Source: a virus. From it: a DNA stretch of 25,471 bases. The notes under the pieces were generated by a model. The model was not told where the DNA came from. It searched no databases and worked only from the letters and a program-made list of their open reading frames with translations. Below are positions 1 to 20,366 of this stretch, piece after piece (positions within the stretch are counted from its first letter, which is position 1; each line of letters starts with the position of its first letter). The translations under genes were made by a program, and so were the position numbers. Location: positions 1 to 25,471 of the IMG/VR virus record IMGVR_UViG_3300042563_001137; one strand, 5' to 3'.

Positions 1-2
1 CA

Positions 3-206
3 CTATCGGGATTCTTAGATATCTTTGAAGGTAGACTCAATAAACTAAGAGACACTTTAAAAAAAGAATTGGAAAAATCTAAATCTGAAAGATGTAGAAC
101 CACTATTAAAAGTGCATTGCGCGATGCCAAACGCCTAAAAAAGGTAGTCAAACAAGGAAGAGAAGATCATAAGCAAAACTGTCCGCATTGTGGTGGCAAA
201 ATATAA
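3..206 (+). CDS. C-terminal part of an unknown phage protein with a half zinc ribbon
   Basis: An open frame enters the window from the left and stops at TAA 204-206, giving 67 residues. It is very rich in Lys, Arg and Glu and is probably helical (residues about 10-55), then ends in CPHCGGKI, a single CxxC knuckle. The missing upstream part may carry the partner cysteines. The frame overlaps the ATG at 188 of the next reading frame, but the better start for that next gene is ATG 218, which leaves 11 bases between the genes. I do not recognise the family. A small helical protein with a terminal zinc-binding knuckle is all that can be said. Confidence 0.6.
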   Translation, partial: LSGFLDIFEGRLNKLRDTLKKELEKSKSERCRTTIKSALRDAKRLKKVVKQGREDHKQNCPHCGGKI

Positions 207-217
207 GTATTAACTAT

Positions 218-1033
218 ATGCAAAAGACATATAGATCAATCTTTATAAGTGATGTACATCTAGGTACGAAAGATTGTCAAGCAGATAAACTAAATAATTT
301 TTTAAAACATAATTCATGTGATACATTGTATCTAGTCGGCGATATAATAGATGCATGGAAAATACAACAAAACAAATGGCGTTGGAAACAATCGCACACC
401 AACGTAGTACGCAGAGTATTAGGTCATGCCAAGCGTGGCACTAAAGTAATATTCATTGCAGGCAATCACGATGAATTCTTAAGACCAATGATACCATATG
501 GTTTTAGTTTTGGCCTAATAGAAATACATAATCAAATAGAACATATAGGTGCAGATGGTAAACACTATCTAGTAGTACACGGTGATTTGTTTGATGGCAT
601 TACAAGATTGGCGCCATGGTTATCATTTTTAGGAGATAAAGCATATGATTTCATACTTAGCCTCAACAGCAGATTTAATTGGATTCGTCATCGTTTTGGT
701 TTTGGGTACTTTAGCCTTAGCATGTTTCTTAAGCGAAAGGTCAAAAAAGCAGTAGATTTTATTTTTAAGTTTGAAGAAAATTTAGCCAACTACTGTAAGA
801 AGCGTGGCTTCGATGGCGTGATATGTGGACACATACACCACGCAGAGATTAAAGAAATCAATGGTGTTATATACATGAATGACGGCGATTGGGTTGAGTC
901 TTGTACTGCATTAGTTGAACATTGGGATGGGCATTGGGAAATAATAACCTGGACCAAGGAGAAGGATAATGTGGCTAATGATATTACTAGCAATACATTC
1001 GCAGAATCCAAAAGATCAACCGGGGAGAATTGA
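218..1033 (+). CDS. plcP: Calcineurin-like metallophosphoesterase, COG2908, PlcP-like phospholipase C candidate
   Basis: This 271-residue protein has the full set of metallophosphoesterase motifs: SDVHLG (D12, H14), GD at 41-42, GNHDE at 82-86 (N83, H84), VHGD at 120-123 (H121) and GHIHH at 204-208. The family is COG2908, which contains both LpxH (UDP-2,3-diacylglucosamine hydrolase) and the alphaproteobacterial phospholipase C PlcP. E. coli LpxH has GNRD where this protein has GNHD. The next large gene is an Agt-like glycosyltransferase, the usual partner of plcP in phosphate-starved marine alphaproteobacteria. PlcP would cut phospholipid head groups from membranes to give diacylglycerol. 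An in-frame ATG at 188 exists, but 218 sits just before the conserved core and avoids overlap. LpxH-like activity is the main alternative. Confidence 0.8.
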   Translation: MQKTYRSIFISDVHLGTKDCQADKLNNFLKHNSCDTLYLVGDIIDAWKIQQNKWRWKQSHTNVVRRVLGHAKRGTKVIFIAGNHDEFLRPMIPYGFSFGLIEIHNQIEHIGADGKHYLVVHGDLFDGITRLAPWLSFLGDKAYDFILSLNSRFNWIRHRFGFGYFSLSMFLKRKVKKAVDFIFKFEENLANYCKKRGFDGVICGHIHHAEIKEINGVIYMNDGDWVESCTALVEHWDGHWEIITWTKEKDNVANDITSNTFAESKRSTGEN

Positions 1034-1142
1034 ACTAATGTTTAATGATCAGAAAACATGTGAACAAGTTTTATCTACAATGAAATATGATTTAAAATTT
1101 AAAAGCTTTAAGGTTGAAGGTGTATGTCAAAAACAATCCTAA
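969..1142 (+). CDS. Small conserved-looking phage protein overlapping both neighbours
   Basis: A 57-residue frame begins at ATG 969 inside the 3' end of the phosphoesterase gene and ends at TAA 1140-1142, 19 bases into the glycosyltransferase gene. A clear Shine-Dalgarno AAGGAGA at 956-962 lies 6 bases before the ATG, which favours 969 over the internal ATG at 1038. The protein starts with a short hydrophobic stretch (MWLMILLAIHS), then has a compact body with two cysteines and ends in VEGVCQKQS. It resembles the small N-terminally hydrophobic proteins common in marine T4-like phages. Function is unknown. The double overlap suggests translational coupling of all three genes. Confidence 0.7.
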   Translation: MWLMILLAIHSQNPKDQPGRIELMFNDQKTCEQVLSTMKYDLKFKSFKVEGVCQKQS

Positions 1143-2131
1143 TCGTCACAGATAACTTACCTAATCAAATAAATGGTGTTGTTACCACTTACAAAAATAT
1201 TGAAGCGTGTGCGATTCGGGACAACTATCGTGTTGTATATCTTGATCCCGGGAGGTTCCGCTATGTTGATTGCCCTGGCTACAACGAAGTCAAGATTGCC
1301 TTTCCCTGGAAAATGGGCCAGATATTTGAGGAGATCAATCCGGATCATATCCATATCGCCACCGAAGGTCCTGTGGGTCTGTGTGCTAGACAATATCTTG
1401 ACAAACGCGGTTATCGCTATAACACTGCTTATCATACTAAGTTTCCAGAAGGAATTAGAAAGTTGTTTGGCGTACCTGAAGCCATTACTTGGCCTTTAGT
1501 TCGTTGGTTCCATAAGCATAGCGGTAAGGTATTGACCACTACAACCACGATGGTTAATGAATTAAAAGAGCAAGGTTTTGGTACAGAAGTTATTCCTTGG
1601 ACGCGAGGTGTAGATAGAACTATTTTTAAACCAGAACACAGAGCAGAAACTGTTTCTAAATACATATTATGTGTTAGTCGTGTTAGTAAAGAAAAAAATC
1701 TAGAAGCATTTTTTGAACTGGACTATCCTGGATATCTTAAAGTTATGGTGGGCGATGGTCCTATGTTAGAAACCTATAAAAAGAAATACCCCGATGTACA
1801 TTTCACCGGATACAAAACGGGAATAGATTTAGCTAGATATTATGCAAATGCAGAGGTGTTTGTATTTCCAAGTCAATGGGAAACTTTTGGAATAGTTATG
1901 ATAGAGGCAATGGCATGCGGCACTCCTGTAGCTGCCTATTCTGTAACTGGCCCAAAAGATGTAATAGAAGAGGGATTGACCGGATATATGTCATCGCTAG
2001 ACCAAGGATTAGTAATTTCTGTAGATAAATGTTTACAACTTGATAGAAAAAAAGTGGTTGAAGGTAGTAAAAGATGGAGCTGGGAGAATGCATGGCAAAT
2101 ATTTAAAAATAACCTCGTAGATAAGGAATAA
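1124..2131 (+). CDS. agt: GT4-family glycosyltransferase, Agt-like (glycolipid synthase candidate)
   Basis: This 335-residue GT-B glycosyltransferase starts with the acceptor-domain pattern ILIVTDNLPNQINGVVTT (residues 5-22). It contains HIATEGPVG (77-85) and TAYHTKFPE (101-109). The donor domain has VSRVSKEKN (184-192), GDGP (210-213) and the retaining GT4 E-x7-E motif at E253 and E261 in the WETFGIVMIEAMACGTPVA region. These features match the SQDG/mannosyltransferase-like clade that includes Agrobacterium Agt. Agt places glucose or glucuronate on diacylglycerol to make phosphorus-free glycolipids. Its position just after the PlcP-like gene supports the same role here: PlcP makes diacylglycerol and Agt glycosylates it. 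Sugar donor and acceptor are inferred. The start overlaps the preceding small gene, and AAGG lies 8 bases upstream. Confidence 0.8.
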   Translation: MSKTILIVTDNLPNQINGVVTTYKNIEACAIRDNYRVVYLDPGRFRYVDCPGYNEVKIAFPWKMGQIFEEINPDHIHIATEGPVGLCARQYLDKRGYRYNTAYHTKFPEGIRKLFGVPEAITWPLVRWFHKHSGKVLTTTTTMVNELKEQGFGTEVIPWTRGVDRTIFKPEHRAETVSKYILCVSRVSKEKNLEAFFELDYPGYLKVMVGDGPMLETYKKKYPDVHFTGYKTGIDLARYYANAEVFVFPSQWETFGIVMIEAMACGTPVAAYSVTGPKDVIEEGLTGYMSSLDQGLVISVDKCLQLDRKKVVEGSKRWSWENAWQIFKNNLVDKE

Positions 2132-2134
2132 ATA
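2127..2134 (+). promoter_or_regulatory. Possible late-type promoter (AATAAATA)
   Basis: AATAAATA at 2127-2134 differs at one base from the T4 late promoter TATAAATA and lies 23 bases before the ATG at 2157. It overlaps the stop codon of the glycosyltransferase and forms a short inverted repeat, TAAATA-CT-TATTTA, at 2129-2142. AT-rich DNA makes chance matches common, so this is weak. Confidence 0.3.
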
Positions 2135-2156
2135 CTTATTTAAATGAGGAGCCATT

Positions 2157-2456
2157 ATGCGAAAAATAGCAATGGCGTTCCTATTCTGCCTAACTAGCTC
2201 TATAGCAAACGCCCAGGAGATTATCGATTTAACCAAACCAATGAAATGTTCTGACGCACAAACCGTTATGAATTATTTCTTAGATATTCACCAAGAAAAA
2301 CCAATTTGGGTAGGCAAAACAGTACACAATACACATATTACATTACTAGCAAATAAAGAAAAAAGATCATGGACTGTGATTGAGTATGATGCTAGATTGG
2401 CGTGTGTTTTAGGCGCAGGCGAAGAAAAAACAAGCAGTAACTTAGAAAATCTTTGA
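2157..2456 (+). CDS. Small secreted phage protein with signal peptide
   Basis: This 99-residue protein has a textbook signal peptide: MRK, a hydrophobic core AMAFLFCLTSSI, and an ANA cleavage site before QEIID at about residue 19. The mature part has two cysteines (in MKCSDAQT and ARLACVLG) that could form a disulfide in the periplasm. GAGGAG at 2143-2148 gives a good ribosome site. Similar short exported proteins occur in marine T4-like phages, but I know of no assigned function. It sits between the lipid genes and the Nudix gene in the same direction. A role at the host envelope is plausible from export alone. Confidence 0.75.
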   Translation: MRKIAMAFLFCLTSSIANAQEIIDLTKPMKCSDAQTVMNYFLDIHQEKPIWVGKTVHNTHITLLANKEKRSWTVIEYDARLACVLGAGEEKTSSNLENL

Positions 2457-2473
2457 CACATAAAATATAGATT

Positions 2474-2923
2474 ATGATCATACCAGAAAAACAATATAAA
2501 CAAATTATTAATAGCACCGTCAATTTATGTGTTGACGTGTGTTTGAGATATAATGATAAAGTTCTATTAATCAAAAGAACTGAAGAACCCTGCAAAGGGG
2601 TTTTTTGGCCAGTCGGTGGCCGAATCCATAAAGGCGAAAAAGCTGTAGAGGCTGCACGCCGAAAAATCAAAGAAGAAATTGGTATAGATTTTAAAGGCGA
2701 TCTATATCCTATGGGGTTTTACGAAGACCGATACAAAGAAAATTCGTTTTCCAAAAATACAGACTATTGTACATTAAGTATTGTGTTTGCCGGAGATCTA
2801 GAAGGTCTTCCAAACATCGTATTAGATAAAACATCTGAAGAAATTGGATTTTTTGACGAATTGCCAAGCAGATTCAAAGTGCAAACATTCGCTAACGATT
2901 TTGCAATAGAAGGCTGGGTATAA
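2474..2923 (+). CDS. Nudix hydrolase, GDP-mannose mannosyl hydrolase-like
   Basis: This 149-residue protein carries one Nudix box: G49-x5-E55-x7-R63, then K64-I65-K66-E67-E68-I69-G70-I71. The metal-binding pair E67/E68 is present, but the first Glu of the usual REUxEE pattern is Lys (K64). The GGR just at the start of the box and the following FYEDRY region resemble GDP-mannose mannosyl hydrolase (Gmm/NudD) members more than MutT. It would hydrolyse a nucleoside diphosphate sugar or similar compound in the cytoplasm. Given the sugar genes elsewhere in the window, an NDP-sugar substrate is reasonable but not shown. There is no clear Shine-Dalgarno before ATG 2474. Confidence 0.8.
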   Translation: MIIPEKQYKQIINSTVNLCVDVCLRYNDKVLLIKRTEEPCKGVFWPVGGRIHKGEKAVEAARRKIKEEIGIDFKGDLYPMGFYEDRYKENSFSKNTDYCTLSIVFAGDLEGLPNIVLDKTSEEIGFFDELPSRFKVQTFANDFAIEGWV

Positions 2924-2926
2924 ATA
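2919..2926 (+). promoter_or_regulatory. T4-type late promoter candidate TATAAATA
   Basis: An exact TATAAATA lies across the stop codon of the Nudix gene, 53 bases before the ATG at 2980. T4 late promoters consist of this motif alone, recognised by gp55 with the gp33 coactivator. gp33 is encoded in this window at 21029. The downstream membrane protein and holin-like gene fit late expression. Confidence 0.5.
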
Positions 2927-2979
2927 ACAGTATGGCCTATGTCTGGCCGTGAATTTTAATCATTTAAAGGAAATACAAA

Positions 2980-3228
2980 ATGGAAATTATCATCATCATT
3001 ATCGCAGTTGTTGCTTTTTTGGCGTACATGCTACATATGACCAACCAAAAAGACAATAATGTTATCTCTAAAGAGATCGATCAAATAGTTGCTAAAGCAG
3101 AAGAAAAAGTTGAAGCAGCAAAAACTGAAATTAAAGAAGAAGTTGCCAAAGTTGAAGCGAAAGCTGAAGCAGTAGTGACCGAAGTTAAAGAAACCGTTAA
3201 GCGCGGAAGAAAGAAAAAAGCCAGTTAA
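2980..3228 (+). CDS. Membrane-anchored Ala/Glu/Lys-rich helical protein
   Basis: This 82-residue protein has one N-terminal membrane segment (about residues 2-18, six consecutive Ile then AVVAFLAYML). A long charged helix follows, built from repeating EEKVEAA, TEIKEEV and AKVEAKA blocks (residues about 32-72), with a basic tail RGRKKKAS. The layout suggests a protein anchored in the inner membrane with a cytoplasmic coiled coil or amphipathic helix. The ribosome site AAAGGAAA lies 8 bases upstream. It is followed by the holin-like gene, so a role in lysis timing or membrane interaction is conceivable. No family is recognised, and low-complexity helices make homology searches unreliable here. 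Confidence 0.7.
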   Translation: MEIIIIIIAVVAFLAYMLHMTNQKDNNVISKEIDQIVAKAEEKVEAAKTEIKEEVAKVEAKAEAVVTEVKETVKRGRKKKAS

Positions 3229-3280
3229 GTCTATAGTATGATTTTGTGGTGGCGTATGATAATAATAAAAGGAGAAAATT

Positions 3281-3694
3281 ATGCCAGCATGGGACGAACA
3301 CGCAAACGAGGAGAAAAAGAACCCTACTCCATTTAATACTAATGCAATTCCGCCCGCAGGATATGTATCAGGTAACCCTGATATGTTGAAAAGCACCGGC
3401 GGCGCTATGCAAGAAGGCGCCGATGTATTAGTTAAAAATGATAATTCAGATTGGATTAACAAAAAATGGCGACCAGCAATGGGATGGGTTTACATGGCGA
3501 CATGTACAGCTGATTTTGTACTATTCCCAGTACTATGGTCATTGTTACAAGCACTAAGTAATGGTGCAGTCACAAATCAATGGCAACCATTAACACTGCA
3601 AGGTGCAGGGTTATATCATATAGCAATGGGTGCCGTACTCGGTATTGCTGCTTATGGACGTACTAAAGAAAAAGTAGCCGGCGCAGCTGGTTAA
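3281..3694 (+). CDS. Putative holin (3-TM/GTA-holin-like membrane protein)
   Basis: The 137-residue protein has a hydrophilic N-terminal third. It then has the pattern KWRPAMGWVYMATCTADF (about residues 65-82), a hydrophobic stretch FVLFPVLWSLLQAL (82-95) and a third hydrophobic segment GLYHIAMGAVLGIAAYG (about 112-128), ending in RTKEKVAGAAG. The WRP-W start followed by two or three membrane segments and a basic tail resembles the phage and gene-transfer-agent holin family with three membrane segments. AAAGGAG lies 8 bases before the ATG. The endolysin candidate lies far away at 17590, which is common in T4-like genomes. An unrelated membrane protein remains possible. Confidence 0.6.
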   Translation: MPAWDEHANEEKKNPTPFNTNAIPPAGYVSGNPDMLKSTGGAMQEGADVLVKNDNSDWINKKWRPAMGWVYMATCTADFVLFPVLWSLLQALSNGAVTNQWQPLTLQGAGLYHIAMGAVLGIAAYGRTKEKVAGAAG

Positions 3695-3707
3695 TATAGT
3701 TATGAAA

Positions 3708-3730
3708 AAGTGCGGGGCAATCCCGCACTT
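3708..3730. terminator. Perfect 9-bp hairpin between the holin-like gene and the next promoter
   Basis: AAGTGCGGG at 3708-3716 and CCCGCACTT at 3722-3730 form a 9-bp GC-rich stem with a 5-base loop. The T tract is better in the minus direction (GAAAAAG precedes the stem), while the plus strand reads TTCTGTT after it. It lies just before the promoter at 3734, so it probably ends the upstream operon and insulates the next one. Confidence 0.7.
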
Positions 3731-3733
3731 CTG

Positions 3734-3762
3734 TTGACATTTATAGAATTAGATATTATAAT
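3734..3762 (+). promoter_or_regulatory. Sigma70-type promoter, TTGACA-N17-TATAAT
   Basis: TTGACA 3734-3739 and TATAAT 3757-3762 are both perfect with a 17-base spacer, directly after a hairpin and 25 bases before the ATG at 3788. This position between operons makes it one of the most credible promoters in the window. It would drive the small gene at 3788 and the genes after it by host RNA polymerase. Confidence 0.8.
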
Positions 3763-3787
3763 TTAGTTATTATTTAAAGGAGTTGAT

Positions 3788-3952
3788 ATGGCTAATCATA
3801 AAGAACGCGATCCAAACACTACCAAATCTGGTAAACCAAAACTTCATTCAAAACCGTTAGCAGATTTGCAAACAATGGTTAAGTCTGCAAGACCAAAAAA
3901 TGTGCCAATGATTAATAAGGCGATTCAAAAGAAAGTTGGCAGGGGTCGTTAA
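3788..3952 (+). CDS. Small basic phage protein, 54 residues
   Basis: ATG 3788 opens a 54-residue frame ending at TAA 3950-3952, whose last base is the first base of the next start codon (TAATG). AAGGAG at 3777-3782 is a strong ribosome site. The protein is rich in Lys, Arg and Pro (pI clearly basic), begins MANHKERDPN and ends KKVGRGR, with no membrane segment. It may bind nucleic acid or be a small host-takeover protein, since it is first after a strong promoter. That is only a guess from charge and place. No family is recognised. Confidence 0.7.
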   Translation: MANHKERDPNTTKSGKPKLHSKPLADLQTMVKSARPKNVPMINKAIQKKVGRGR

Positions 3953-5055
3953 TGTCTGTATTTTACAATATGCCGCCACCGGCTAATGATTTTCCATCTT
4001 TTATAAACGATGCAAATAGTTTAGCAGGACAAATTGCACAGACGATTGCAGGTACAAGTGCTATATCACAGCATGACGTATTATACAATATGGTTCGTGC
4101 AAAAAATCAAAAAAATCGTTACCTTAAAGACAATTTAAAGAAAAAATTTTCAGGTCAAATTTATTTGACAGATCATATTTTTCATGCTGTTAGATATAAG
4201 CCATCTGACGCAAATATTCATTTCTTTAGCATGCAGAATGCACCTAAGATATTTGAAAATTCTATTGTTATACTAAGTAACAATAATGTGATGGTAAATA
4301 ATGAGCTAACAGCTTTAATTGAACTTTATTTAAGATCACCTACATCTGTTTTTGTAATTTGGGACTTTGACAATCACCATTGGTTTGCTTTATCCGGCAT
4401 ACTTGCGGCAATATGCGATCTTTACGTTCCAACTCATGCAGACAACCTTGAACCTTTGTCAAGATACAATAATATCATGGCTGGTCCTGTGCCTTCAGGT
4501 GTTATTCAATGGACTCGAGAATATTTACGAGATAATTTTGACATTATTAAAAATACTGTTAGATCAGATGAGCCATTGGGACATCATATTGAATATCCCC
4601 AATTTCCAATTCGACAAAAAACAGTACAAACACTAAATCGTAAATTATCAGAAGTAAAACTTGTTGATGGTTCTTACCATAGCAAAGATATGCTTGAAAG
4701 ATTTACAGAATGGTGTAGTCATAAAGCACATTGGATTGTTCCTGTTCTAAATGATGCACCTATTCGAATTTTTGATGCGTTGGTAACAGGCGGAATTCCA
4801 ATTATTCCTCGTTCTTTAAAATATCATAAAGATGTTGTAGATATTTGGGATCACGTTCTATTTTATGACTATGAAGATGTCCAAAATCCATTAATTCTAA
4901 CCGAAAAAGCGAATAACCTTTTTGACGAAAGGGGTATTTCCGGAATACTTGACAGACATGAAAAAGTATATTATAATTACCATGTAGACAACAGAGTTGA
5001 ATCAATTTTGAAAGCGGTACAAGATGAATATGGATTATCAGGACTTACTAGTTAA
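3952..5055 (+). CDS. Possible GT-B-fold glycosyltransferase-like protein
   Basis: This 367-residue protein has no obvious membrane segment. Its C-terminal half holds the pattern HWIVPVLNDAPIRIFDALVTGGIPIIP (about residues 264-290) followed by a WDHVLFYDYEDV stretch. This resembles the donor-side end of GT-B glycosyltransferases, where a conserved E or D lies near R-x-F-D/E-A-x-x-x-G-x-P-x-I. The middle part (IWDFDNHHWFALSG) is unlike anything I can name. If it is a glycosyltransferase, targets could include phage DNA bases, virion proteins or host glycans. It starts one base into the previous stop codon, and a consensus promoter for the following gene lies inside its 3' end. Function is tentative. 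Confidence 0.5.
   Translation: MSVFYNMPPPANDFPSFINDANSLAGQIAQTIAGTSAISQHDVLYNMVRAKNQKNRYLKDNLKKKFSGQIYLTDHIFHAVRYKPSDANIHFFSMQNAPKIFENSIVILSNNNVMVNNELTALIELYLRSPTSVFVIWDFDNHHWFALSGILAAICDLYVPTHADNLEPLSRYNNIMAGPVPSGVIQWTREYLRDNFDIIKNTVRSDEPLGHHIEYPQFPIRQKTVQTLNRKLSEVKLVDGSYHSKDMLERFTEWCSHKAHWIVPVLNDAPIRIFDALVTGGIPIIPRSLKYHKDVVDIWDHVLFYDYEDVQNPLILTEKANNLFDERGISGILDRHEKVYYNYHVDNRVESILKAVQDEYGLSGLTS
4949..4977 (+). promoter_or_regulatory. Sigma70-type promoter, TTGACA-N17-TATAAT
   Basis: TTGACA 4949-4954 and TATAAT 4972-4977 match the consensus perfectly with a 17-base spacer. The site is inside the 3' end of the preceding gene and 46 bases before the ATG at 5024, so it probably drives the WYL_2-like gene. 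Confidence 0.7.
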
Positions 5056-9682: not shown

Positions 9683-10447
9683 ATGAAAGTAGTATTAGTT
9701 ACGGGCGGATTTGATCCTTTACATAGTGGTCATATCGAATATTTTAAAGCAGCTAGAAAATTAGGTAATATATTGGTTGTCGGAGTCAATTCTGATGATT
9801 GGCTAACACGGAAAAAAGGTCAACCTTTTATGCCATTGAATGAGCGCATGGCAATCATAGAAGCCCTTCAACCTGTTACTTATTGTATTTCTTTTGATGA
9901 TGCTGATAATAGTGCTAAAGGTGCAATTAGAAAAGTCAGAGAATTGTTTCCCAATGAAACGATTGTTTTTGCGAATGGCGGAGACCGTACTAAAGAGAAT
10001 ATTCCTGAAATGGATATTGTAGATGATAAGTTAGAATTTGTATTCGGCGTAGGTGGCGAAAACAAGATGAATTCTAGTTCTTGGATTCTTCAAGAATGGA
10101 AAGCACCGAAGACCGAGCGGCAATGGGGTTATTATCGAGTACTCCAAGAAGATGGTAAAGAAATTAAACTTAAAGAACTAACCGTAGAGCCGGGCAAGTC
10201 TCTAAGTATGCAAAGACATCAACACCGAAGTGAATTGTGGTTTGTTGCAGAAGGACAGGCAATAGTAAATACAATTCATCCCGAAACAAAAGAAATAGTC
10301 AAAAGAGGTTCATATGAACGTTTTGCAACTATTAGTATTTCAGATACTGAATGGCATCAGCTCTGTAATTTAACCGAATCCCCATTAAAGATTATTGAAA
10401 TCCAATATGGCGATAATTGTATTGAAGAAGACATTGAACGTAAATAA
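9683..10447 (+). CDS. Cytidylyltransferase-like domain fused to a mannose-6-P isomerase-type cupin
   Basis: This 254-residue two-domain protein has at residues 1-135 a nucleotidyltransferase of the HxGH type: GGFDPLHSGHIEYFKAARK with H14-S-G-H17, then NSDDWLTRKKG and NERM. It is close in style to RfaE/HldE-type cytidylyltransferases. Residues about 140-254 form a cupin with SMQRHQHRSELWFVAEGQA (metal ligands H179, H181, E184), like the C-terminal isomerase domain of ManC/AlgA. The first domain would activate a sugar phosphate or polyol phosphate with a nucleotide. The second may isomerise or bind a sugar phosphate. The fusion suggests a complete two-step sugar route. The substrate cannot be read from the sequence. 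The gene begins one base after the previous stop. Confidence 0.85.
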   Translation: MKVVLVTGGFDPLHSGHIEYFKAARKLGNILVVGVNSDDWLTRKKGQPFMPLNERMAIIEALQPVTYCISFDDADNSAKGAIRKVRELFPNETIVFANGGDRTKENIPEMDIVDDKLEFVFGVGGENKMNSSSWILQEWKAPKTERQWGYYRVLQEDGKEIKLKELTVEPGKSLSMQRHQHRSELWFVAEGQAIVNTIHPETKEIVKRGSYERFATISISDTEWHQLCNLTESPLKIIEIQYGDNCIEEDIERK

Positions 10448-13167: not shown

Positions 13168-13566
13168 ATGACAACAGACTCTCACCGCGTACCAGTTGAA
13201 GCTGGGTTTCACGATGCTCGCGGAACTATTCTCCCACTAACACATGGCGACGCTAATGTCCAAATGATTTGGTCTAAGGCAGGAGCCCTTCGTGCTAACC
13301 ACTATCACAAAACAGATACTCATACTTGTTATTTGGTAACAGGTGAGATGATGTTCTATTGGCGCAATCATGGTGAGGATACAATTCACCGCGAACATTT
13401 TAAACAAGGCGATATGTTTAAAACTGGTCCATTGATCGATCATGAAATGGTTTTTGAAACTGATTCTATCATGGTTGTTATCTCAGAACACAAACGTGAT
13501 GCTGATACCTATGACGAAGACATCGTAAGAATTGCTCCTCTCCATGAACAGTATGTTGAAGTATGA
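13168..13566 (+). CDS. Cupin-fold protein, sugar-metabolism type
   Basis: A 132-residue single cupin. The metal-site pattern is ANHYHKTDTHTCYLVTGEMMFYW (H47, H49, and the T/H pair after), followed by the second cupin block KQGDMFKTGPLIDHEMVFE with H91. This resembles cupins in NDP-sugar pathways (epimerases or isomerases of deoxysugars) and regulators. It is the first of four adjoining genes for sugar handling, ending 14 bases inside the methyltransferase gene. An epimerase or isomerase role on a nucleotide sugar is the best guess. GAAAGG gives the ribosome site. Confidence 0.75.
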   Translation: MTTDSHRVPVEAGFHDARGTILPLTHGDANVQMIWSKAGALRANHYHKTDTHTCYLVTGEMMFYWRNHGEDTIHREHFKQGDMFKTGPLIDHEMVFETDSIMVVISEHKRDADTYDEDIVRIAPLHEQYVEV

Positions 13567-14701
13567 TAGTTGCCGTGCATGCGGCAGTAAAGCATTATTC
13601 CCTTGGCTAGCACTACCAAATTCACCGGTTGCTAATGCCCTATTTGAAAAACCTGATTTCTATAGACATCCTCTAGAATTAAATGGTTGCTTAGAGTGTG
13701 GGCATTTGCAGTTAGCAGGAGCTCCTGATCCAGATGGTGTGTTTTCTACATATAAGTATAAGTCTGGCGTATCTGCATCTTTTAGAAAACATTTTAAAGA
13801 GTATGCTGCAGATATAGTTAACAAATATGGATTTGGTATTGATGGTCGAGTATTGGAAATCGGAAGTAATGATGGATACTTATTAGAAGAGTTTAAAAAG
13901 CAAAATTGCAGAGTAACGGGTGTTGAACCATCTGAGCATATGCTTCAAGAACATAATGACAAAGGTATTCCTGTCGTTATAGGATTCTTTACATCCGAAA
14001 TGGTTGATAACTATAAATGGAACAGCTACTTTGATTATGTCTGCGCTAATAACGTACTTGCACATATTCCAAATACATTAGATGTTGTTAATGGCATTAC
14101 TAAAGCTCTTCGTATCGGGGGCAAGCTAGTTGTAGAATGCGGCGATCAAGAAGGTATTATTAATGGTAAATTCTTAGACAATGTCTATCACGAACATATA
14201 GATTACTATTCATCTTATTCTTTTGCTAAACTACTTCAACGAGCAAATCTAAAAGTTATATCAGTTAAACCTGTAAATACACATGGAATTAGTTTTAGAT
14301 TAATTGCCGAAAAAGTATTACCTCACGTTAACATAGAATTGCCGAAACCTAAAGTAAATTGGGCACAATCTAAAAAGGATGTTGAACAATTAATTAGCGA
14401 TCGTGAAGATAAAATGAAAGCTTTAATTGGCGATCGTCAGTTCTTCGCATATGGTGCTGCTGCAAAAGCAGTTACGGCATTGTATACATTAAGTATGATT
14501 AACAATCAATTAATTGGTGTTGTCGATGACAATGAACTGAAACAGGGTTATTATTTCCCCGGTACAGATGTTTTAATTAAGCATCCAGAAACAATGCCTA
14601 AAGATGCGTTGGTTGTGGTAACTGCTTGGAATGTTTTTGATGACATTAAAGCAAAATTAGTAGAACGTGGCCATACTGGAGAAATAATCTGTATGCAATA
14701 A
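13553..14701 (+). CDS. Zinc-binding sugar C-methyltransferase (Methyltransf_13/14 type)
   Basis: The product of 382 residues has three parts. Residues 1-60 form a zinc site C7-x2-C10 and C46-x2-C49 (putative zinc-binding methyltransferase domain). Residues about 95-200 form a SAM-binding core with VLEIGSNDGYLLE. The C-terminal third, with FAYGAAAKAVTALY and VDDNELKQGYYFPGTDV, is the C-methyltransferase end domain. This trio is the signature of NDP-ketosugar 3-C-methyltransferases such as TcaB9 and NovU. The frame stays open upstream to a TTG at 13532 and has ATG at 13544 too. I chose 13553 because MLKYDSCRACG matches the family start. It overlaps the cupin gene. Confidence 0.85.
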   Translation: MLKYDSCRACGSKALFPWLALPNSPVANALFEKPDFYRHPLELNGCLECGHLQLAGAPDPDGVFSTYKYKSGVSASFRKHFKEYAADIVNKYGFGIDGRVLEIGSNDGYLLEEFKKQNCRVTGVEPSEHMLQEHNDKGIPVVIGFFTSEMVDNYKWNSYFDYVCANNVLAHIPNTLDVVNGITKALRIGGKLVVECGDQEGIINGKFLDNVYHEHIDYYSSYSFAKLLQRANLKVISVKPVNTHGISFRLIAEKVLPHVNIELPKPKVNWAQSKKDVEQLISDREDKMKALIGDRQFFAYGAAAKAVTALYTLSMINNQLIGVVDDNELKQGYYFPGTDVLIKHPETMPKDALVVVTAWNVFDDIKAKLVERGHTGEIICMQ

Positions 14702-15432
14702 TCTATGGTACTGGTAAATGGGCACAACTTATTGGTTCAAAATTAAATGCGCTAAAAGTTACCCCCGTTTACGTAGGTAGCAGAATATCGCCAGAAGTAA
14801 TATCCCGAGACGAAGTAAAAAATGCTTCTTATCGGGATATGCCTGTCTTTATTGCCTCAGCAACACAATCGCATCTTAGCGATCTAAAACATTGTTTAGA
14901 TTTACGACCAACTAAGATATTTGTGGAGAAGGGATTCTCCAATGCTGAAGAAAGAAAGCAAGCAACACAACTGGTAGGCAATATTCCCTCATATGTATTA
15001 TCGCAACATAGATATTCCTCCATATTTGATCTTTTCATAAGTTCGCAGGATGTTAATCAAGTATATAAATGTACCTACACCTGGAAAATTGAAAACGATA
15101 ATGTTTCTGAATTTTTATATCATATATCATCGCTGGATGGATATTTAAGAAAGAAACAAACAGAAATATATAACAGTAATTTTGGTAACTACAACATAGA
15201 TGATATATCTAGTTATAATATAGTTGAAAGTCCTTATAGGATTTTAAAAATACAAATTCAATCTCGTCTTTATGATGCTACCTTTAAAATTGGAGCATAT
15301 AATAACGTAGTAATGAAACAAAAAGATTCTAAACAAAAAATTGTTATGACATCTTATTCTGAGGATAATTTAGGTAAGATGATATATAATGTTTTAGAGA
15401 AAAATAGTAAAATACGACTTGAGAGGATATAA
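14689..15432 (+). CDS. Gfo/Idh/MocA-like oxidoreductase, non-ATG start
   Basis: The first ATG of this frame is at 14839, but the coding sequence clearly begins earlier. From about 14692 it reads YAIIYGTGKWAQLIGSKLN, a Rossmann fold dinucleotide motif, then VYVGSRISPEV. The part after 14839 has FIASATQSHLSDLKHC and FVEKGFSNAEE, the EKP-like lysine block of Gfo/Idh/MocA enzymes. I place the start at CTG 14689, with GGAG at 14678-14681 seven bases before it. ATA or ATC codons nearby, or a frameshift from the methyltransferase, are alternatives. The protein (about 247 residues) is shorter than typical family members (about 330-350), so the C-terminal domain is reduced. It is probably an NAD(P)-dependent ketosugar reductase. 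Confidence 0.7.
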   Translation: MYAIIYGTGKWAQLIGSKLNALKVTPVYVGSRISPEVISRDEVKNASYRDMPVFIASATQSHLSDLKHCLDLRPTKIFVEKGFSNAEERKQATQLVGNIPSYVLSQHRYSSIFDLFISSQDVNQVYKCTYTWKIENDNVSEFLYHISSLDGYLRKKQTEIYNSNFGNYNIDDISSYNIVESPYRILKIQIQSRLYDATFKIGAYNNVVMKQKDSKQKIVMTSYSEDNLGKMIYNVLEKNSKIRLERI

Positions 15433-16445
15433 TGAATATTTTAATTTTAGGCGGTGATGGTTTTATTGGATATCACCTAAGTGAATCGATTCTTGAAGAT
15501 AGTAGATTCGATAATGCAAAAATTGTCAGTGTGGATTTATATAATAATCGTACACATATGCTACCTAAAGATAGCAGACACGTCTTTCATCAATTAGATG
15601 TTATTAAAGAACGTAACAAAATAGATGAACTAATTGCAGGGTGTGATGTATTATTACCTTTCGTTGCTATCGCAACTCCTAAGCTATATGTTGAACAACC
15701 ATTACGAGTTTTTGAGTTAGACTTTGAAGAAAATCTTCGAGTAATTAAATTAGCCCAAAAATTAGGCAAGCGAGTTATATTTCCATCTACATCTGAAGTA
15801 TATGGCAAAGGCGAAGCACCATTTGACGAAGAAACCACAGACTTAGTATATGGGCCAATTAAATATTCTCGATGGATCTATGCCTGTTCTAAACAATTAT
15901 TAGATCGTGTTATTTTTGCGTTGGATCAAAAAGAAGGAATGCGATTTACATTGTTCCGTCCCTTCAATTGGTTAGGTCCATATCTTGATTCTTTAGATGC
16001 AACGTCTGAAGGATCGTCTCGTCTAATTACACAGTTAATGGGTGATGCGTTACAACGAGGCGAAGTTACTTTAGTCGACGGTGGTCATCAGAAACGATGC
16101 TTTACAGATGTACGAGATGGTGTAGCTGCACTTAAAGAAATTCTTTTACATGAAGATATCGCGCAAGGCAAAATCTACAATGTAGGAAATCCTTGGAACA
16201 ATCTATCAGTTCGTGAAGTATCAGAACAATTGATTGTTAAATTAAAAGAACGTAAAATGGTAGACAATGTCCAGATTAAAGTTAAATCTAGCGGCGACTT
16301 CTATGGCGCGGGATATCAGGATGTATCTAATAGAGTTCCAAGTATCAATGCTATCGGCAATGATTTAAATTGGACTCCTAAATACACGTTTGCCGAATCA
16401 TTGGATAATATTTTAAATACTGTTCAATCTAAAAAGCCATTATAA
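15432..16445 (+). CDS. NDP-sugar dehydratase/decarboxylase, ArnA C-terminal-like
   Basis: This 337-residue short-chain dehydrogenase has GGDGFIG (7-13), the catalytic SEVYG (S121, E122), Y150-x3-K154 in RWIYACSKQ, and LFRPFNWLGP. It also has VDGGHQKRCFTDV, and GYQDVSNRVPSI with R301. The last blocks are hallmarks of the ArnA C-terminal domain, where E434 and R619 carry out oxidative decarboxylation of UDP-glucuronate to UDP-4-keto-arabinose. The matching E122 and R301 are present, so a UDP-glucuronate decarboxylase activity is likely. It starts at the last base of the previous stop (TAATG). It makes a 4-ketosugar that the C-methyltransferase and oxidoreductase next to it could modify. Confidence 0.85.
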   Translation: MNILILGGDGFIGYHLSESILEDSRFDNAKIVSVDLYNNRTHMLPKDSRHVFHQLDVIKERNKIDELIAGCDVLLPFVAIATPKLYVEQPLRVFELDFEENLRVIKLAQKLGKRVIFPSTSEVYGKGEAPFDEETTDLVYGPIKYSRWIYACSKQLLDRVIFALDQKEGMRFTLFRPFNWLGPYLDSLDATSEGSSRLITQLMGDALQRGEVTLVDGGHQKRCFTDVRDGVAALKEILLHEDIAQGKIYNVGNPWNNLSVREVSEQLIVKLKERKMVDNVQIKVKSSGDFYGAGYQDVSNRVPSINAIGNDLNWTPKYTFAESLDNILNTVQSKKPL

Positions 16446-16815: not shown

Positions 16816-17568
16816 ATGGCAAAAACTAAAACCAATCTTCAGATCCAATCTAATCAAACACCTCAACTTACATTAACAAATAATAAGTTGAAATTGAGTT
16901 TAGATGATATGAAAACTATCAAGCCATTAACAGATAATCAGAAAGGATTTTTTGAATCTTATGATAAATCAAAAATTATGTTATTGCATGGTGTTGCAGG
17001 AACAGGCAAAACATACATTGCTCTTTATCACGCTTTAGAAGAAGTTTTAGACAAGACAAATCAATATCAGAAAGTAGTAATAGTTAGGTCAGCAGTACCT
17101 AGTAGAGATATCGGACATTTACCGGGAGACGAAAAAGAAAAGACAGAAGTTTATACAGAACCCTATGTAGAAATTTGTAAAGATTTATTTGATAGACCAG
17201 ATGCATATCAAAGACTTGTTGAACAAAAAGCAATACAGTTTATGATTACATCTTTTGTTAGAGGTATTACCTTAAGCAATTCTATCATTGTTGTGGACGA
17301 ATGTCAGAATATGACAGACATGGAATTGAATTCCATAATGACTCGTATCGGACATAGATCAAAGATCATATTCTGCGGAGATTTCAGACAAACAGATTTG
17401 TATAAAAAGGGAGATATGTCGGGATTAAAGAAATTTATAACAATCGCAGATATGATGCCTAATTTCAAAACATTTGAGTTTGGGGTTGATGATATAGTTA
17501 GATCTGCTATAGTTAAGGAATATATATTAGCAAGGTTAAAATACGAAACCCAGTATGAAATGGGTTAA
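16816..17568 (+). CDS. phoH: PhoH-like P-loop ATPase
   Basis: This 250-residue ATPase has Walker A GVAGTGKT (59-66) and Walker B IIVVDECQN (157-165, D161 and E162). It also has the PhoH-specific blocks VIVRSAVPSRDIGHLPGD (88-105) and IIFCGDFRQTDL. PhoH is part of the phosphate-starvation regulon in bacteria and is one of the most widespread auxiliary genes in marine phages. Its exact role is still debated (RNA helicase or nuclease-linked activity). Its presence with the PlcP-Agt pair fits a phosphate theme. It is preceded by a hairpin and followed by the endolysin. Confidence 0.95.
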   Translation: MAKTKTNLQIQSNQTPQLTLTNNKLKLSLDDMKTIKPLTDNQKGFFESYDKSKIMLLHGVAGTGKTYIALYHALEEVLDKTNQYQKVVIVRSAVPSRDIGHLPGDEKEKTEVYTEPYVEICKDLFDRPDAYQRLVEQKAIQFMITSFVRGITLSNSIIVVDECQNMTDMELNSIMTRIGHRSKIIFCGDFRQTDLYKKGDMSGLKKFITIADMMPNFKTFEFGVDDIVRSAIVKEYILARLKYETQYEMG

Positions 17569-19236: not shown

Positions 19237-19839
19237 ATGTTTAAAGACGATTTATATGAGGTTGTTCGAGGAGCGTTATCTAAAGATTTGTGTCAGCATT
19301 TAGATACAGAATTTGAATTATTAAAGCAGCTAACCTATTTACAGGGTGGACAAAGCGAAGAAAACAAATTTATGTTTGGCGATAGTCAAGTTACAAATAG
19401 TTTTGCTTATTACGGGGCACTATGCTTTGAATCCTTAGCTTTGCAGATGCAACCGTTGATAGAAAAGATTACAGGCAAATCTTTGTATCCGACATATACA
19501 TATGCGAGGATTTATTATAACGAAGCAACAATGGCAATACATAAAGATAGACCAAGCTGTGAATTTTCAGCAACAATTAATATTACGATAGATGAAAAGC
19601 CATGGGAAATTTGGTTTGAGAATTTGCAAGGTGAGCATAAAGCAGTTGAATTATATCCCGGCGATTTAATTGTATATAAAGGCGATACATTGAATCATTG
19701 GAGAGATGCTTACAAAGGTCAGCGACAAACACAAGCATTCCTACATTATGTAGACAAAAAAGGTAAATATAGAGATTATAAATTTGACAAAAGACCACAC
19801 TTAGGTCTATCCGCAAATGCAAGGAGCGTCAATTTATGA
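19237..19839 (+). CDS. 2OG-Fe(II) oxygenase, prolyl-hydroxylase-like
   Basis: This 200-residue protein has the iron-binding H102-x-D104 in IHKDRPSCEFSATI, the distal H154 in TLNHWRDAY, and R163 in GQRQTQAF for 2-oxoglutarate. The fold matches the prolyl 4-hydroxylase-like group common in cyanophages and other marine phages. Its substrate is not known. It overlaps heme oxygenase by four bases (ATGA), placing it in the same operon. Both enzymes use iron, O2 and reductant, and the released heme iron might serve this enzyme, but that is only a suggestion. Confidence 0.85.
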   Translation: MFKDDLYEVVRGALSKDLCQHLDTEFELLKQLTYLQGGQSEENKFMFGDSQVTNSFAYYGALCFESLALQMQPLIEKITGKSLYPTYTYARIYYNEATMAIHKDRPSCEFSATINITIDEKPWEIWFENLQGEHKAVELYPGDLIVYKGDTLNHWRDAYKGQRQTQAFLHYVDKKGKYRDYKFDKRPHLGLSANARSVNL

Positions 19840-20366
19840 GCACATTAAAAGAACTAACTGCAGATAAACATAGAGAAGCAGAGTCTCAACCTTTTCTAAA
19901 AACAATTTTTGCCGGCAATGTAGATGAAGCAAAATATACGGACTATCTATATCAATTATTATTGGTGTACCAAACTTTAGAGAATTATGCAGATGATTTG
20001 AATTTGTTTGAGGGTATTGAAGATATAAAAAGATCAAGAATGATTGAGCTGGATTGGGTAGAACTATTAGGAGATGCTCCTAGCGGACATCTAAACAAAT
20101 CAACTATCAATTACTTAGATTATATTAATAGCATTAAGAACGATAAACAAAAGCTCATGGCTCATGTTTATGTCAGACATATGGGTGACCTATTCGGCGG
20201 GCAAATGTTAGCGAAGTTATTGCCCGGTAGTAATCATATGTATAAGTTTAATGATGTACCTAACCTTATTAAAGGCATTAGATCTAAGCTTGATATATCA
20301 CTTGCAGATGAAGCTAATGTAGCTTTTGACTATAATATAGATATGCTAAAAGATTATAATGATTGA
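19836..20366 (+). CDS. ho1: Heme oxygenase
   Basis: This 176-residue protein has the heme oxygenase pattern. The N-terminal helix TADKHREAES carries the proximal heme ligand H12. YLYQLLLVYQTLE follows, and the distal helix has VYVRHMGDLFGGQML (112-124) with the Gly-rich kink GDLFGG. It opens heme to biliverdin IXalpha, iron and CO, using ferredoxin electrons. At 176 residues it is shorter than cyanobacterial HO1 (about 240). The stop overlaps the start of the bilin reductase by 8 bases, so biliverdin is made and used by co-translated enzymes. Confidence 0.9.
   Translation: MSTLKELTADKHREAESQPFLKTIFAGNVDEAKYTDYLYQLLLVYQTLENYADDLNLFEGIEDIKRSRMIELDWVELLGDAPSGHLNKSTINYLDYINSIKNDKQKLMAHVYVRHMGDLFGGQMLAKLLPGSNHMYKFNDVPNLIKGIRSKLDISLADEANVAFDYNIDMLKDYND

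Follow-up and report, generated by a model that had tools for sequence, protein, structure and literature searches.

A PlcP-Agt type gene pair in T4-like phages, predicted to remodel host membrane lipids

Results and discussion

A phosphoesterase and a glycosyltransferase gene joined by a small reading frame

The window analysed here, i.e. the whole stretch of DNA, is an IMG/VR virus record of 25,471 bases with a G+C content of 35%. It opens with three overlapping genes, all on the plus strand:

218..1033, plus strand: plcP-like gene, a calcineurin-type metallophosphoesterase and predicted phospholipase C (271 aa; Pfam Metallophos, 45 bits)
969..1142, plus strand: small bridging ORF (57 aa), overlapping both the plcP-like gene and the GT4 gene
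1124..2131, plus strand: agt-like GT4 glycosyltransferase gene, product a predicted diacylglycerol glycosyltransferase (335 aa; Pfam Glycos_transf_1, 89 bits)

The ATG at 218 is taken as the start of the plcP-like gene; a start at the TTG at 188 instead would lengthen the product by 10 aa. Window bases 1-4702 recur unchanged on a second public contig, of 48,934 bases (L085), which continues the phage sequence upstream of the window; on it, a small gene precedes plcP. An earlier note made from the letters alone had described a phosphoesterase with GNHD and GHIHH motifs and a GT4 with an E-x7-E motif, overlapped through a small gene. This description holds throughout: both motifs are present in the 271-aa frame, the E-x7-E is E253-x7-E261, inside FPSQWETFGIVMIE, and the 57-aa ORF at 969-1142 overlaps both genes. 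The presence in the window of a gene pair of the PlcP-Agt type is confirmed.

The 57-aa ORF is itself conserved as a protein. It is present in 111 loci, with GT4 partners as well as with the GT2 partners described below, has a conserved start (MW[LI][ML]I[LI]xAVHxxNPxDxPGR) and contains two Cys. Over the 63 nt that it shares with plcP, mean amino acid identity is 67% in its own frame against 42% in the PlcP frame. Searches of the ORF against Pfam, NCBIfam, PHROGs and PADLOC gave no match.

The phosphoesterase is PlcP-like

Judged from its sequence, the window phosphoesterase is PlcP-like and not an LpxH. Its scores on the LpxH models TIGR01854 and NF003743 (36.7 and 47.6 bits) are far below the respective cut-offs of 190 and 134, which were easily exceeded by the positive control, E. 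coli LpxH (389 and 364 bits); plcP-type proteins of P. aeruginosa and S. meliloti gave 44.5 and 55.1, and 38.9 and 38.1 bits, respectively. The metal ligands of the calcineurin type (D-x-H, D, GN-H-D, H, GH-x-H) are all present in the window protein, and an alignment showed them to be kept in all 230 viral and all 115 bacterial PlcP rows. At the position of the Arg in the GNRD motif of LpxH, the window protein and every one of these phage and bacterial rows have a His (GNHD). What the window protein has in common with LpxH is the calcineurin-like fold and the metal ligands, but it lacks GNRD, lies far under the family cut-offs, and can be aligned with LpxH over only half the length, at an identity of about 24%.

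By comparison, identity reaches 56% over 247 residues with a PlcP of the PA3219 type encoded on a P. aeruginosa plasmid (L321). On this plasmid, plcP is immediately followed by a GT4 gene and then by a cyclase gene, a layout that we take to be that of PA3219-PA3218-PA3217, and the locus identity of L321 rests on this assumption. PA3219 and PA3218 have been found to make glycolipids, by genetics and assays, and PA3219 is 46-47% identical to its S. meliloti and Phaeobacter PlcP counterparts (PMC8528852). As the 56% of the window protein exceeds these values, it falls within the range of proven PlcPs.

A careful phylogenetic analysis recovered the phage PlcPs as one group with full support (100/100), branching beside bacterial PlcP, and when LpxH was included, the E. 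coli LpxH branch was at the maximal length that the program allows. The earlier note would have been refuted by a placement inside LpxH; as far as sequence can decide, the outcome was against LpxH, and the protein groups with bacterial PlcP. We reject an LpxH identity on the curated cut-offs with their positive control, the motif and the tree. The AlphaFold model of the window PlcP (pLDDT 80, with a poor middle part) had LpxH structures as its top PDB matches, which is expected, since PlcP and LpxH share one superfamily. A phospholipase C activity on PG, PE or PC is inferred.

Two contigs with bacterial names carry a PlcP that falls inside the phage clade, one in a Hyphomonas MAG (L241) and one in a Methylotenera MAG (L275, 669,623 bases). 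The surroundings of the gene look phage-like in the latter and bacterial in the former, and a search of both genomes for gp23 found none.

The glycosyltransferase is Agt-like, with a substitution in the catalytic dyad

The residues of the SAR11 Agt have been mapped by mutation and docking (Wei et al., PMC8231724), which identified contacts to diacylglycerol (His104, Thr162, Arg163 and Trp320, GTcp numbering), contacts to the UDP-sugar (Gly82, Gly85, Arg190, Lys195, Thr257, Phe258, Gly259 and Glu264), and a catalytic dyad, His104-Asp256. The diacylglycerol contacts are kept in the window GT4 as H104, T160, R161 and W320, and so are all UDP-sugar contacts, including R186, K191, T254, F255, G256 and E261. 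In the dyad, the His is kept and E253 replaces the catalytic Asp. Glu occupies this site in 100 of 142 phage GT4s (Asp in the other 42), against only six of 82 bacterial relatives, and it is the usual residue at that catalytic position across GT4 enzymes generally. In the SAR11 Agt, the corresponding change, D256E, abolishes more than 90% of the activity (PMC8231724); the sugar donor or the rate of the window enzyme may differ. This replacement of Asp by Glu is the main weakness of the Agt reading.

The window GT4 is 39% identical to the P. aeruginosa Agt1 encoded on L321, a value near the 41% identity of Agt1 itself to the Phaeobacter Agt (PMC8528852). The Lys and Tyr variants seen in remoter phage GT4s also occur in the aligned P. 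aeruginosa Agt1. In a tree obtained by a quick method, the phage GT4s form a clade (SH-aLRT 92) that is nested among bacterial plcP-linked GT4s and away from WaaG, with the caveat that the branches of WaaB and WaaG are very long and their positions uncertain. A clade acting on proteins or DNA would have spoken against the earlier note; instead, the protein groups with the plcP-linked bacterial GT4s and not with those of LPS synthesis. Its structure model has an ordinary GT-B fold (pLDDT 89), which does not tell the acceptor. We conclude that the GT4 is Agt-like by sequence, while synthesis of glycosyl-diacylglycerol is inferred from its clade, its contact residues and its linkage to plcP.

A role in a defence system was also considered and rejected: the match to the Pfam GT4-conflict family is weak (29 bits for a cut-off of 26), this cut-off is also passed by bacterial Agt-type proteins (27-33 bits), and PADLOC returned nothing of note.

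The pair is widespread among viruses, and an unrelated glycosyltransferase can take the place of GT4

The search for the pair in viral genomes that the earlier note had proposed showed that it is common there and often flanked by pstS. A scan of IMG/VR found relatives of PlcP encoded on at least 597 stretches and relatives of the window GT4 on 446. All 96 viral loci retrieved with both plcP and GT4 show the two genes in the same order and on the same strand, and the gap between them is mostly the same 94 bases, containing the small ORF. Median dN/dS values are 0.10 for plcP, 0.15 for GT4 and 0.08 for GT2, indicating purifying selection on all three genes. With such constant order and strand and such low dN/dS, the plcP-GT4 arrangement is not due to chance. 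T4 major capsid protein gp23 is encoded on 11 of 19 large carrier contigs, and the window itself encodes gp32, a T4-type RNase H and a ligase. Carrier contigs are up to 525 kb long. The cassette thus resides on genuine viral genomes of T4-like phages and is under selection, as established computationally. A nucleotide search for close isolates gave a single match, 174 nt in the plcP of phage Mosig.

We collected 181 non-identical phage PlcP loci, 14 of which end too early, leaving 167 readable. In 156 of these, a glycosyltransferase gene stands behind plcP, in keeping with a PlcP, next to which a gene for a phosphorus-free lipid head group is expected. The enzyme belongs to GT4 in 109 loci, of which a script counted 106 and the remaining three are L146, L159 and L160, where GT4 overlaps plcP; it belongs to GT2 in 47, and 11 loci have neither. 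The GT2 (about 238 aa, e.g. L047:6901-7623) is unrelated to GT4 and occupies the position that GT4 has elsewhere, after plcP and the small ORF. In NCBIfam and the PDB, it most resembles enzymes of polysaccharide or arsenosugar type, with all matches under cut-off, and no homologue with at least 30% identity over most of its length was found in isolate phages and plasmids. The GT2 at L047:6901-7623 may be a new glycolipid synthase.

Further variation includes a third type of glycosyltransferase behind plcP on one PlcP contig from faeces. On four contigs (L110, L112, L114 and L147), a gene that by eye resembles a RimK-type ATP-grasp ligase lies between plcP and GT4 (e.g. L114:5105-6004).

Comparison with bacterial PlcP-Agt operons

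When 289 alphaproteobacterial genomes were searched with the GT4 alone, plcP lay directly upstream in 29 of the best 30 loci; conversely, a GT4 lay directly downstream in 45 of 80 bacterial PlcP loci. Bacteria short of phosphate use the two genes to remove phosphate head groups from their membrane lipids and to replace them by sugars. Bacterial PlcP-Agt operons, such as those of SAR11 HTCC7211, P. aeruginosa (PA3219-PA3218) and A. tumefaciens (agt), share with the phage pair the protein families, the order, the strand and similar residues. The phage pair differs in being carried by T4-like phages and in falling into separate phage clades, in a catalytic Asp that is replaced by Glu in most GT4s, in the additional 57-aa ORF and the GT2 variant and, for the window copy, in the absence of a Pho box upstream.

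Links to phosphate

The pstS gene is found at most 2.6 kb from plcP in 24 of the 181 loci, in most cases immediately preceding plcP or immediately following the glycosyltransferase gene. A pstS-type gene is present on five of 29 large carrier contigs and adjoins the cassette, within about 3 kb, on four of them. This adjacency is unlikely to arise by chance, as it would rarely result if genes were placed at random on contigs of 120-250 kb. The known phosphate genes of phages, such as pstS and phoH, act on uptake or have an unclear function, whereas PlcP and its glycosyltransferase would act on membrane lipids.

A cultured example is provided by Pelagibacter phage Mosig EXVC030M, isolated on HTCC1062, whose plcP is annotated as putative UDP-2,3-diacylglucosamine hydrolase and neighbours a divergent phosphate ABC transporter (pstS-like) gene (L001:6894-8729). 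The Mosig PlcP is 50% identical to that of the window and has GNHD. It differs from the window in that no glycosyltransferase gene lies near plcP, and tblastn found no GT4 in the Mosig genome; on contig L161, a PlcP 94% identical to that of Mosig is followed by an Agt-like GT4. The host strain HTCC1062 is reported to lack plcP (Sebastian et al., PMC4796936). Because Mosig and HTCC1062 form a cultured phage-host pair, the first step of the route can be tested in culture.

Two other possible signs of a phosphate connection were less informative. PhoH, which the earlier note had offered as a hint, is indeed encoded in the window (16816-17568) but says little about phosphate, since 3487 phage records match it. 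As for regulation, the best match to a Pho box above the window plcP is 8/14, i.e. at chance level, so that Pho-box control of the window copy was not found, although the promoter may lie further upstream given that plcP follows a small gene. Pho-box control is typical of bacterial plcP copies without strictly defining the family; among these copies, 36 of 98 have a match of at least 11/14, against 0.7 expected. Other phage copies display a weak excess over shuffled sequences, which we distrust because related copies are counted repeatedly and the shuffles keep single-base content only. A T4 late promoter was also sought; of 226 viral upstream stretches, 19 contain one, at no fixed position.

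A putative route from phospholipid to glycolipid, and competing explanations

What the analyses establish directly is the existence of the genes, their linkage, the constraint on them, their location on T4-like contigs, and the placement of their products with PlcP and Agt. Accordingly worded, the earlier claim of a phage-borne PlcP-Agt route is supported by family placement, contact residues, linkage and viral spread, while lipid changes have not been shown. We consider it probable, from homology, that in this pair the phage encodes its own copy of the PlcP-Agt route by which bacteria remodel their lipids; the activity, timing, host and benefit of this copy remain inferred or not shown.

In such a route, the PlcP-like enzyme would cut the phosphate head group off host phosphatidyl lipids (PG, PE), yielding diacylglycerol together with glycerol phosphate or phosphoethanolamine, as inferred from the close homology and from metal ligands that are all intact. 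The Agt-like GT4 would then use a UDP-sugar to attach glucose, galactose or glucuronic acid to the diacylglycerol, a step suggested by clade, contact residues and gene linkage. The bilayer would be preserved as phosphorus-free glycolipid, and host enzymes may release phosphate from the phospho-alcohol for phage DNA. Phosphorus for phage DNA would be the likely gain, and a change of membrane or surface a by-product or second gain. Variants of the route would use GT2 in place of GT4, as in about a quarter of related phages, or be joined by PstS in some.

In its fullest form, our proposal is of a long-held cassette of T4-like phages, in which PstS, PlcP and a new small protein are combined with a glycosyltransferase (an Agt-like GT4, or an unrelated GT2 doing the same job), and that would turn membrane phospholipid into glycolipid and direct the phosphorus to phage DNA even in hosts that lack plcP, such as HTCC1062. 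We hold this only tentatively. Several points count against the main reading, namely the Asp to Glu replacement, the lack of a Pho box above the window copy, the lack of a glycosyltransferase near plcP in Mosig, and the presence of sugar-nucleotide genes, possibly for a surface glycan; moreover, there are no biochemical, lipid or expression data.

The same enzymes and lipids could serve a gain other than phosphorus, such as a block to superinfection, a change of receptor or easier lysis. Lipid make-up does alter phage attachment in Ruegeria, where an olsA mutant is less susceptible (PMC9938194), and the window carries genes of sugar-nucleotide or surface-glycan type (9683-10447 and 13168-16445). 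Such a gain is rather unlikely in our opinion, but it cannot be set aside lightly; pstS adjoins the cassette in 24 of the 181 loci, and in four of the five large carriers that have it, which better fits a gain of phosphorus. A further possibility is that PlcP acts on lipids and is merely co-inherited with a GT4 or GT2 acting on another acceptor, e.g. an undecaprenyl-linked or LPS sugar chain. This would agree with the Glu for Asp in GT4 and with a GT2 that is unrelated to Agt and has only sub-threshold matches of polysaccharide or arsenosugar type, but it is at odds with the tight linkage in both phages and bacteria, the retention of the diacylglycerol contacts W320, H104 and R161, and the occurrence of two unrelated glycosyltransferases in one slot behind plcP. 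A shared acceptor, diacylglycerol, best explains this swap, and we regard separate acceptors as improbable.

The public annotation as UDP-2,3-diacylglucosamine hydrolase and the LpxH structure at the top of the fold search would instead suggest that the phosphoesterase makes lipid X and that GT4 decorates lipid A or the core, the pair altering LPS. However, the scores lie far below the LpxH cut-offs in the presence of controls, His stands for the GNRD Arg in all 230 phage proteins, the branch to E. coli LpxH is maximal, and the partner is Agt-like, unlike WaaG or WaaB. An LPS-modifying pair appears very improbable indeed, and remodelling of host phospholipid to glycolipid remains our preferred reading.

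Novelty and implications

A search of the open-access literature on plcP together with phage or virus returned bacterial plcP work and phage reviews, and no phage PlcP-Agt pair; subscription papers and preprints were outside the search, and an earlier mention is possible. In viral surveys, 'lpxH' appears among the viral genes (PMC9611531, PMC10653327), and we infer that some of these entries may be mislabelled plcP. We rate as new the phage setting of a known bacterial pathway, as well as the GT2 variant. The pair is carried by many large T4-like phages of waters, which suggests that the phage mines or rebuilds the host membrane during replication.

The phage nutrient genes known to date mostly concern uptake, nucleotides and photosynthesis. 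If the proposed route were true, the host membrane would be a phosphorus store for phages, and the lipids of infected cells would be altered in natural waters, where such glycolipids are taken to indicate phosphorus stress in bacteria. The GT2 swap offers a candidate for a new glycolipid synthase.

Other genes in the window

The sugar-nucleotide genes at 9683-10447 and 13168-16445 include a heptose-phosphate adenylyltransferase fused to a cupin, a C-methyltransferase, and a UDP-glucuronate decarboxylase / UDP-xylose synthase (NCBIfam, 397 bits for a cut-off of 294). The substrate of the last enzyme is UDP-glucuronate, which is a known Agt donor. Two genes past GT4, a Nudix hydrolase is encoded at 2474-2923, which weakly resembles GDP-mannose mannosyl hydrolase (35 bits for a cut-off of 146). 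Finally, this T4-like phage window contains a heme oxygenase gene at 19836-20366 (Pfam, 76.5 bits).
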